DNA from: Acidobacteriota bacterium
Lineage (GTDB): Bacteria; Acidobacteriota; Terriglobia; Bryobacterales; Bryobacteraceae
Assembly: GCA_016871015.1 (NCBI GenBank)
Contig: VFZX01000023.1
Coordinates: 1 to 43,010 of the forward strand
Reading direction: 5' to 3'
Length of the DNA: 43,010 bases
Shown: positions 33,120-35,347 of the stretch, piece after piece
Numbering within the stretch: the stretch's first letter is position 1
How the letters are laid out: each line of letters begins with the position of its first letter
Made by a program: the position numbers and the translations under genes
Notes under the pieces: model-generated
What the model was told of the DNA's origin: nothing
Database searches by the model: none
The model's input: only the letters and a program-made list of their open reading frames with translations

Positions 33120-33719
33120 ATGGAGCCGATGTTTCTGCCCGGAGTGGAGGCGAATCCCCAGCCTTCGCCGTGGACCCGCGCGATTGAGTCGTTGAAGCAA
33201 AGCGGGTCCGGTGAATACCCGCAGATCTGGCATCTTTTCGCCTTCAAGCCCGAAGCGACAGAGCATTTGGCGCGATTCACCCAGGCCATCCTTCGCGCCG
33301 AGGCGCCGCTTACGCCAGGCTTTCGGGAACTGATCGCGGCCTATACGTCGCGGAGGAATCACTGTCCGTTTTGAACCAAGGCACACGCCGCGGTCGCGGC
33401 GGTTCTGCTGGATGACGGAGGGTTGGTTGACGCGGTGCTCAACGACCTCGACTCCTCGCCCCTGACCGGGGCCGAGAAAGCACTGCTGCATTTCGTGGAC
33501 AAGGTGAACCAAGGCTCGCCACAGATCGGTCCGGCGGACTTCGTGCCCTTGCGGGATCACTGCTGGACCGACGAACAGATCTACTACGCGATCACGGTCT
33601 GCGCACTTTTCAATTTCTACAACCGATGGGTCGACGCGACCGGTGTGCACGCTCTGTCGGATGCGGCGCACCGGGAGGGCGGCCAGAGGAGTGCCGCCTA
33701 CGGCTATGTCCGCAAGTGA
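33120..33719 (+). CDS. Predicted AhpD-like selenoprotein (CxxU), TGA at 33372-33374 read as Sec
   Basis: 199 aa including one selenocysteine, in the AhpD/carboxymuconolactone-decarboxylase fold (peroxidase-related subgroup). The frame has one internal TGA (33372-33374). Upstream residues include PQIWHLFAFKPEATEHLARF and RELIAAYTSRRNHCPF; downstream ones include TKAHAAVAAVLL and ITVCALFNFYNRWVDATGV. Both halves look like one intact protein. The TGA falls on the second Cys of the redox motif: E70-x11-C82-P-F-U85-x3-H89, exactly the AhpD active-site pattern. In AhpD this Cys is in the proton-relay site that reacts with peroxide, so Sec there is chemically sensible. A SECIS-like hairpin follows at 33376-33411. 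The alternative is a Cys-to-stop mutation: TGT or TGC to TGA is one base, and the next gene is a pseudogene. Start chosen at MEPMFLPGVE; the frame is also open upstream to 32769. Overlaps darT by 14 bases. Confidence 0.75.
33376..33411 (+). promoter_or_regulatory. SECIS-like hairpin downstream of the in-frame TGA
   Basis: Six G-C pairs (CGCCGC 33386-33391 with GCGGCG 33396-33401) close a GGTC tetraloop at 33392-33395. A lower stem of GCA/TGC (33381-33383 with 33406-33408) and CCA/TGG (33376-33378 with 33409-33411) is separated by small internal loops. The loop begins 18 bases after the TGA. The E. coli fdhF SECIS has a GGUC loop about 19 bases after its UGA, where SelB contacts the loop G and U. 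Caution: codons for Ala-Ala-Val-Ala-Ala in GC-rich DNA can give such a hairpin by chance. Confidence 0.6.
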
Positions 33720-34303
33720 GGCGCTCAACCTCCCGCGGCCAACAAAGCTGTTTCGGATCGTTCATGTCGACAACCTGTCGACTCTCCTGCGGCGGCGAGG
33801 CCTTCATGCACCTAATCACCAGCCGGATGCCGGCCTTCCGTACCGGGTGATTCACAATGAGGAGATCCAACGGGTGCGCAGGCAGCGCCGGATCCCGTGT
33901 GGTCTCCGGGGCGTGATTCACGACTACGTTTCGTTCTACTTCGGTCCCAGATTGCTAATGCTCTATCTGCTTCACACATGCTGGGCTCGCCACTGCTCCA
34001 ATTTGTGTTTTCAAACGGACACGGGATCGCCCACATACGGCGTGGTTCGAATCGCTGAGGGACTTCGACAAGGTCGACTGGGCAGCCGTCTACGCGGCCA
34101 CCTGGAGAGACACCCTTGAAGACGGCGATAGACAGCGCCGCAAGCAGGCGGAGTTCCTCGTGCACCAGTTTTGCCCATGGAGTGTGATTCAGCACGTAGC
34201 GGTTCTGAATCAAGCGGCGCGGAAGCGCGTTGCGGACGTATTTTCCAGAACCGCTGCCGCCGATTCCCGGCCCGTCGTGGTAAGACGTGGATGGTACTAT
34301 TGA
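33706..34303 (+). pseudogene. darT: DarT toxin, broken (ssDNA ADP-ribosyltransferase, DUF4433)
   Basis: DarT toxins ADP-ribosylate thymidine in single-stranded DNA. The pieces lie in three frames. From ATG 33706 to about 33978: KLFRIVHVDNLSTLLRRRGL, GLHAPNHQPDAGLPYRVIHN, RRIPCG, VIHDYVSFYFGP and MLYLLHT. From about 33981 to 34034: QFVFSNGHGIAH. From 34043 to the TGA at 34301: WFESLRDFDKVDWAAVYAAT, RRKQAEFLVHQFCPWSVIQ and a WYY end. Between the first two pieces the expected segment (G..eGy..GQ.PLIYLVST.qAv) is missing, roughly 25 residues from memory of the family, together with a frame change. A one-base loss separates pieces two and three. Translation from 33706 would stop at 34119 after 137 codons and lack the catalytic Glu of AEFLVH in frame. 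The toxin should be dead. Confidence 0.88.
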
Positions 34304-34309
34304 AAGCTC

Positions 34310-35347
34310 ATGATCCGTGAAGGACAAGGCAACCTGTTGGCTGCGCATGTGGAGGCGCTCGTCAACACGGTCAACTGTGTCGGGTACATGGGCAAGGGCA
34401 TTGCACTCCAGTTCAAGCGGGCGTATCCGGAGAATTTCCGTGCCTATCAAAGAGCGGTGAAAGAGAGCCTCGTCCAACCAGGCACTATGTTCGTGTTCGA
34501 GACCGGCCGCGTCCTCAATCCAAAGTGGATCGTCAACTTTCCCACAAAACGGCACTGGCGGGGCAATTCCCGGCTTGAAGACATTCAGTCCGGCCTTGCT
34601 GCGCTGGTAACAGAGATTCAAGCGCTCGGCATCAGGTCAATCGCTGTGCCGCCGCTCGGGTGCGGCAACGGCGGGTTGGATTGGAACGTCGTCGGCCCGA
34701 TGATCAAGAGTGCGCTTGCCCCACTTTCGGGCGTTGATGTTCTCCTCTTCCCGCCGGCCGGTTCGCCCGCTGCTGAATCGATGCCGGTCCGCACGGCGTC
34801 TCCCCGCATGACTCCCGCACGGGCACTTGTCGTCAAAGCGATGGAGCAGTATCAGCAGCTCGGCTATAGGCTGACGCTGCTGGAGATTCACAAGCTCGCC
34901 TACTTCCTTCAGGAAGCCGGCGAGCCGCTTCGGCTCCGTTACGAGGCTGGACCTTACGGACCGTACGCGGACAACCTGAATAAGGTCCTGGAGACCATGG
35001 AGGGACACGTCATCCGGGGCTACGACGGCAGTTTGAGGCCGGACACGGAGGTCGATTTGCTCCCAGGGGCGGGTGAGGCGGCGGGCTCTGTGCTCCGGGA
35101 GCACGCGGAATCCCGGGCACGGCTCGATCGGGTAGCGGATCTCATCACCGGATTCGAGACGCCACATGGCATGGAACTTCTCTCATCGGTGCACTGGGTC
35201 GCGGCCAAGCGTGAACATAGAGCACGGAGCGCGGACGAAGCTGTCGCGCAGGTTCATGCCTGGAACGATCGCAAGCGCCGCATGTTTCCGCCGGACCAGA
35301 TTCACATCGCCTGGCAGCGGCTGAGCGATGAATCCTGGATCCCCTGA
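34310..35347 (+). CDS. darG: DarG antitoxin, macrodomain ADP-ribosyl-DNA hydrolase
   Basis: 345 aa, complete. The macrodomain (residues 1-155) has the substrate loop GNLLAAHVEALVNTVNCVGY and MGKGIALQFKRAYPENF, with the second loop VPPLGCGNGGLDW. It removes ADP-ribose from thymidine in DNA. The C-terminal domain (about 170-345; LTLLEIHKLAYFLQEAGEPL, YEAGPYGPYADNL) is the DarT-binding part in known DarTG pairs. All key motifs and length look normal, so the antitoxin appears functional although darT is broken. It follows the darT stop by 6 bases, with only a weak GAAAG before its ATG, which fits translational coupling. Converges on thiE with a 27-base gap. Confidence 0.93.
   Translation: MIREGQGNLLAAHVEALVNTVNCVGYMGKGIALQFKRAYPENFRAYQRAVKESLVQPGTMFVFETGRVLNPKWIVNFPTKRHWRGNSRLEDIQSGLAALVTEIQALGIRSIAVPPLGCGNGGLDWNVVGPMIKSALAPLSGVDVLLFPPAGSPAAESMPVRTASPRMTPARALVVKAMEQYQQLGYRLTLLEIHKLAYFLQEAGEPLRLRYEAGPYGPYADNLNKVLETMEGHVIRGYDGSLRPDTEVDLLPGAGEAAGSVLREHAESRARLDRVADLITGFETPHGMELLSSVHWVAAKREHRARSADEAVAQVHAWNDRKRRMFPPDQIHIAWQRLSDESWIP

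Follow-up and report, generated by a model that had tools for sequence, protein, structure and literature searches.

AhpD-like selenoproteins of the Sargasso Sea were described in 2005 (PMC1088965), excerpts of the GOS survey describe AhpD-like 1 and 2, both with a CxxU motif (PMC2398784), and the table of a 2026 review, as excerpted, lists an AhpD-like TIGR01926 CxxU selenoprotein family with Zhang 2005, Sargasso Sea, as its reference (PMC13188914). For the Acidobacteria, the consulted portions of two further papers give four selenoproteins in three families in a 2006 survey (PMC1794560) and one genome with three known selenoproteins in a 2025 method paper (PMC12013277). We analyzed a stretch of 43,010 nucleotides from an Acidobacteriota bacterium (hereafter the window) in which an earlier note, made from the sequence, had pointed to a possible AhpD-like selenoprotein. 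Its premise that Sec forms are known among AhpD-like proteins agrees with these reports, in which CxxU members go back to 2005. From the comparisons described below, the gene very probably encodes an AhpD-like selenoprotein of 199 residues in which UGA85 is read as Sec.

Reading frame, active site and fold

The gene occupies positions 33,120 to 33,719 of the forward strand. Translation gave 200 codons, with TGA at codon 85 (33,372-33,374), the predicted Sec85, and again at codon 200 (33,717-33,719), where it serves as the terminator. Active sites of the AhpD type follow the pattern E-x11-C-x2-(C/U)-x3-H, and the same pattern underlies the earlier note. The frame carries it as Glu70 (33,327-33,329), Cys82 (33,363-33,365), codon 85 as the second redox position of a C-x2-U motif, and His89 (33,384-33,386). 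In the protein alignment A2, which comprises 26 of the 80 sequences and in which U was read as C, Glu70, Cys82 and His89 are invariant in all 26 rows. The earlier note had placed a sole in-frame TGA on the second Cys of this motif, at these same residues, and had read the two halves as one protein; translation and motif agree with it, and two family models match across the TGA when Cys is put at position 85. These are Pfam CMD (PF02627), with 31 bits against a cut-off of 23 over residues 44-93, and NCBIfam TIGR01926 peroxid_rel, with 90.2 bits against 81.8 over residues 32-176. The frame is also open upstream to 32,769 (an ORF of 201 residues), an extension that was set aside as part of the gene because the homologous stretch starts at the ATG at 33,120 (query residue 1) and because an ATG lies 80-84 codons ahead of the Sec codon in many relatives.

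An AlphaFold2 model computed from alignment A2 reached a pLDDT of 96.1 and a pTM of 0.92. Its top PDB matches were 6k40, 2prr, 2oyo, 2pfx and 3c1l (TM 0.73-0.79), the same entries that a sequence search retrieved; 26 PDB chains were matched at E <= 0.001, and the top 16 of them came from five entries named as peroxidase-related or AhpD. As modelled, the protein is an all-helical AhpD fold of the carboxymuconolactone decarboxylase superfamily and of the TIGR01926 type.

UGA and cysteine codons among the relatives

One scan of genome contigs yielded 79 distinct related loci. The query had Cys at position 85 and one of its six search patterns was able to match nothing but Cys forms, so the sample is biased against TGA. 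The aligned column 85, for which the earlier note had asked whether relatives carry Cys or TGA, holds TGA in 69 of the 79 loci and Cys (TGC or TGT) in the other 10. With the window included, the counts are 70 and 10 of 80 sequences (these are related to one another, and neither the codon counts nor the hairpin pair counts below are independent), which is the pattern of a bacterial selenoprotein, UGA being conserved and aligned with Cys. One of the Cys rows, L087, has a long branch and is probably a paralogue; excluding it, Cys stands at 9 of 78 loci. At a single TGA locus (L085) the frame ends 35 residues past the TGA, which speaks against an intact gene there; it was left out of the tree and of the pN/pS set and is still counted among the 69. 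Since the TGA recurs at exactly this column in 70 of 80 sequences and the rest have TGC or TGT, chance is not the explanation. An assembly or sequencing error was likewise rejected on the recurrence of the TGA in the other loci. Rows with Sec are labelled Acidobacteriota, Gemmatimonadota, Myxococcota and Planctomycetota, labels that can be wrong as many of these genomes are metagenome bins.

A close homologue (E <= 1e-40) is present in 70 of 150 genomes of the order to which the window belongs; the best match contains one internal TGA in 64 of them and no stop in 6, and a few of the weaker matches (44-48% identity) could be paralogues. The TGA was confirmed at column 85 in all 12 of the order genomes that were fetched as loci. 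This set overlaps the 79 loci in species and is not a second independent sample.

In a midpoint-rooted tree of 79 rows, computed with the Sec/Cys column masked, eight Cys rows group together with support of 100/99 within the Sec forms, and another Cys row (L064) is placed elsewhere among them. The Sec/Cys label needs three changes on this tree, at least two of which are forced by well-supported branches. The nesting of Cys forms inside Sec forms allows the direction of change to be studied and favours a direction from Sec to Cys, as far as a midpoint root can indicate.

The part of the gene after the TGA evolves as coding sequence. Compared with the nearest relative (L009), pN and pS were 0.086 and 0.658 before the TGA and 0.144 and 0.616 after it, and pN after the TGA was also well below pS in each of the six further relatives compared; with synonymous changes close to saturation, these ratios are rough. 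In A2, 26 columns do not vary among the remaining 25 rows; the window copy matches 25 of them and has Cys instead of Gly at the other, residue 148. It thus gave no sign of decay. By these comparisons purifying selection acts on the gene downstream of the TGA, and a decayed gene is effectively excluded.

SECIS-type hairpin and selenocysteine machinery

The bacterial SECIS model, in the part of the 2026 review consulted, has a loop of 3-9 nt with a G in the first two positions, often of the form N1-G-(G/U)-..-N2 in which N1 pairs with N2, on a stem of 4-16 bp and 16-37 nt downstream of the UGA (PMC13188914). A hairpin that fits this description lies at 33,386-33,401 of the forward strand, just downstream of codon 85. 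Counting the U of UGA as 1, it spans positions 15-30: positions 15-20 pair with 25-30, position 21 pairs with 24 (G-C here), and GU sits at the tip. Its four-base loop GGUC (33,392-33,395) sits on six pairs and starts 17 nt downstream of the UGA; the comparison with the model covers position, loop and stem. Neither the hairpin nor the covariation described next figured in the earlier note.

Across all 70 TGA rows, the seven pairs, from base to apex, form in 64, 70, 69, 68, 70, 70 and 69 rows. The apex reads GGUC in 46 rows, AGUU in 18, AGGU in 3, GGGU in 2 and CGGU in 1, and the apical pair is G-C in 46, A-U in 21, G-U in 2 and unpaired in 1. In 64 rows the first and last bases of the apex are third positions of adjacent Ala and Val codons, so the two sites are synonymous, and they change together: GCG-GTC occurs 46 times, GCA-GTT 18 times and a mixed combination never. 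The Val codon at the apex is GTC or GTT in 64 of 64 rows, compared with 49% of the Val codons elsewhere in these genes (naive probability about 1e-20, which is overstated as the sequences are related). The linkage was retained in a set thinned to 43 rows, with 31 G-C and 10 A-U among the 41 that could be scored. None of the 10 Cys relatives has GTC or GTT at this site; they have Val as GTG (4) or GTA (1), Ile (4) or Phe (1), so only five have Val there at all, and the apical pair forms in 3 of the 10. The 70 UGA and 10 Cys forms amount to a natural experiment on the SECIS element: the apical G-C pair swaps to A-U through synonymous sites while the GU (or GG) at the tip stays, and forms with a Cys codon lack this constraint.

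Other measures of structure were mixed. In an alignment of 30 TGA rows out of 70, a diverse subset chosen by hand, three of the five pair measures were higher than in every one of 500 shuffles, and the other two did not exceed the shuffles (153 of 500 and 492 of 500). Control hairpins slid along this alignment paired 26-81% of cells, against 96.7% at the hairpin itself. The hairpin region of the window was not more stable than its shuffles (z -0.14; 91 of 200 shuffles did equally well), and folding at this site is just as good in Cys homologues (mean -17.6 versus -16.4 kcal/mol). Folding energy was set aside as uninformative, and because it is unexceptional the case for a SECIS element rests on position, apex and covariation.

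The earlier note had proposed a search of the genome for selA, selB, selD and tRNA-Sec, and all four are present. The tRNA-Sec scored 73.8 bits (cut-off 47) and was called tRNA-SeC with anticodon tca by ARAGORN, and SelB (345.6 bits), SelA (492.7 bits) and SelD (361.8 bits) all exceed their cut-offs. The SelD gene (L122:356, C61) itself has an in-frame TGA, within a G-U-A-S-K motif; the Sec synthesis pathway of this genome probably uses Sec, via SelD. Elsewhere in the same genome, a second AhpD-like frame (L121:1004; C588, about 2203) carries a TGA in C-G-F-U-T-G-T-H and a GGUC-tip hairpin at the same distance; it is 34% identical over residues 65-196 and is probably a second AhpD-like selenoprotein. 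Further AhpD-like frames were observed around the related loci: a second TGA-containing one at L060:4025 (33% identical, C-V-Y-U), some 2 kb upstream of the homologue in L060, and at least one Cys-type paralogue within a few kb at, for example, L057, L063, L067, L083 and L087.

Within the order, SelB was found at E <= 1e-80 in 123 of the 150 genomes and in 55 of the 64 that have the TGA form. Seven of the remaining nine have tRNA-Sec over the cut-off, and the last two, which are 80% and 64% complete, carry SelB in pieces. Where the homologue is uninterrupted, five of six genomes have both SelB and tRNA-Sec; the uninterrupted form therefore needs no loss of the machinery and does not simply follow it. 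The sixth (G028) lacks full-length SelB and, at E <= 1e-9, tRNA-Sec.

Predicted chemistry, alternatives and known families

SelB with Sec-tRNA(Sec) would bind the hairpin at positions 15-30, and Sec is very probably inserted at UGA85. A tentative scheme for catalysis follows from the general chemistry of AhpD proteins. The Sec85 selenolate would attack a peroxide or similar electrophile to give a selenenic acid, which Cys82 would resolve into a Cys82-Sec85 selenenylsulfide, with Glu70 and His89 relaying protons and a thiol reductant resetting the selenenylsulfide. Family and motif are what suggest peroxide reduction by the Sec85 protein.

It is also possible, though in our judgement unlikely, that the selenoprotein is no peroxidase and reduces another electrophile, such as a disulfide or an organic acid (halogenated or unsaturated), in concert with an adjacent MFS transporter. 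Such a transporter is the immediate downstream neighbor in 15 of the 69 TGA loci (in 64 of the 69, the sequence extends 700 nt or more past the gene) and the immediate upstream neighbor in 6 of the 10 Cys loci; in one more Cys locus it is further upstream. The figure of 15 was obtained with a looser distance limit, adopted once several loci had shown the transporter frame overlapping the gene's end; a tight limit gave 9. The fold is shared, moreover, with the debrominase Bmp8 (TM 0.67-0.68), but this is a distant match with 17-18% identity. The window and most TGA loci lack the transporter next to the gene, a single distant match located elsewhere (30% identity, E 4.8e-28) is all that the same genome offers at E <= 1e-20, and the nearest solved relatives are named, by label, as peroxidase-related or alkyl hydroperoxide reductase. 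Where they do adjoin, the MFS and AhpD-like genes recur in two orders (e.g., L018:6594-7817 and L083:4692-5996), and the best NCBIfam match of two transporters examined as examples was the L-lactate model NF049980, with 193 and 187 bits, under its cut-off of 320. Other recurrent neighbor clusters, delimited with no gene caller, were discarded as antisense or frame-shifted ORFs or as lying at scattered distances. A bolder proposal, which we consider improbable, is that the CPFU clade is a distinct and long-kept selenoenzyme of soil Acidobacteriota that would act with an adjacent MFS transporter of the carboxylate type on one organic substrate (e.g., a halogenated acid or an organic hydroperoxide that the transporter imports or exports), and that would have turned to Cys in one acidobacterial lineage with its SECIS element erased and the gene pair kept in reversed order.

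That a near-cognate tRNA or some other recoding system instead inserts Cys or Trp at the UGA appears highly improbable. The support for Sec at residue 85 comes from sequence comparison, which leaves some room for such decoding, but the genome has tRNA-Sec, SelA, SelB and SelD, the hairpin fits the bacterial SECIS model with an apex that Cys forms do not keep, and the sole genome with an uninterrupted form but without full-length SelB (G028) also lacks tRNA-Sec at E <= 1e-9. A recent nonsense mutation from a Cys codon, with a pseudogene decaying like the neighboring darT, was the alternative raised in the earlier note and would take one substitution (TGC or TGT to TGA) next to a darT frame that matches only part of its profile, but we reject it as hardly credible given the same TGA in orthologues labelled with four phyla, the purifying selection after it, the SECIS covariation and the Sec genes of this genome. 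As for the neighbors themselves, the selenoprotein gene is followed in the window by a frame at 33,643-34,119 whose match to DarT covers no more than profile positions 1-76 of 201, and by a DarG antitoxin gene at 34,310-35,347 (458 bits, cut-off 250). In the one toxin frame searched, this looks like a toxin-antitoxin pair with a truncated toxin, and both genes look unrelated to the selenoprotein gene.

With Sec at residue 85 thus the favoured reading, a gene that looks truncated to standard annotation in many soil-type Acidobacteriota would yet encode a full selenoenzyme. No description of this acidobacterial clade was found in the open-licence papers searched, and it may be described elsewhere; new as far as searched are a large, mainly acidobacterial clade, nested Cys forms without the SECIS element and a recurrent MFS neighbor. 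The novelty is modest, that of a clean extension of a known selenoprotein family with no surprise.

The peroxidase-related structures 2pfx, 2oyo, 2prr, 3c1l and 6k40 share fold and sequence profile with the protein described here, and they differ from it in identity (22-28% in the structural match) and in the second redox residue, which we take to be Cys in all five. The AhpD of M. tuberculosis (1gu9, 1knc) presumably has the same kind of motif, E-x11-C-x2-C-x3-H, but is a weak structural match (TM about 0.4). Sestrin (PA26) gave a weak Pfam match (17 bits, below the cut-off of 29.4) and a partial fold match, and is a longer eukaryotic protein. The AhpD-related (seleno)protein NF041238 AhpD_rel_CFYUT, listed as CxxU in the excerpted review table (PMC13188914), was matched over residues 69-178; its model is 357 positions long and the score, 32.6 bits against a cut-off of 175, led us to reject membership. 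The AhpD-like TIGR01926 CxxU family shares with our protein the same NCBIfam model over its cut-off and a CxxU motif with Sec in second place; set beside its published members, as the consulted text describes them, the CPFU-containing group found here is mainly acidobacterial.
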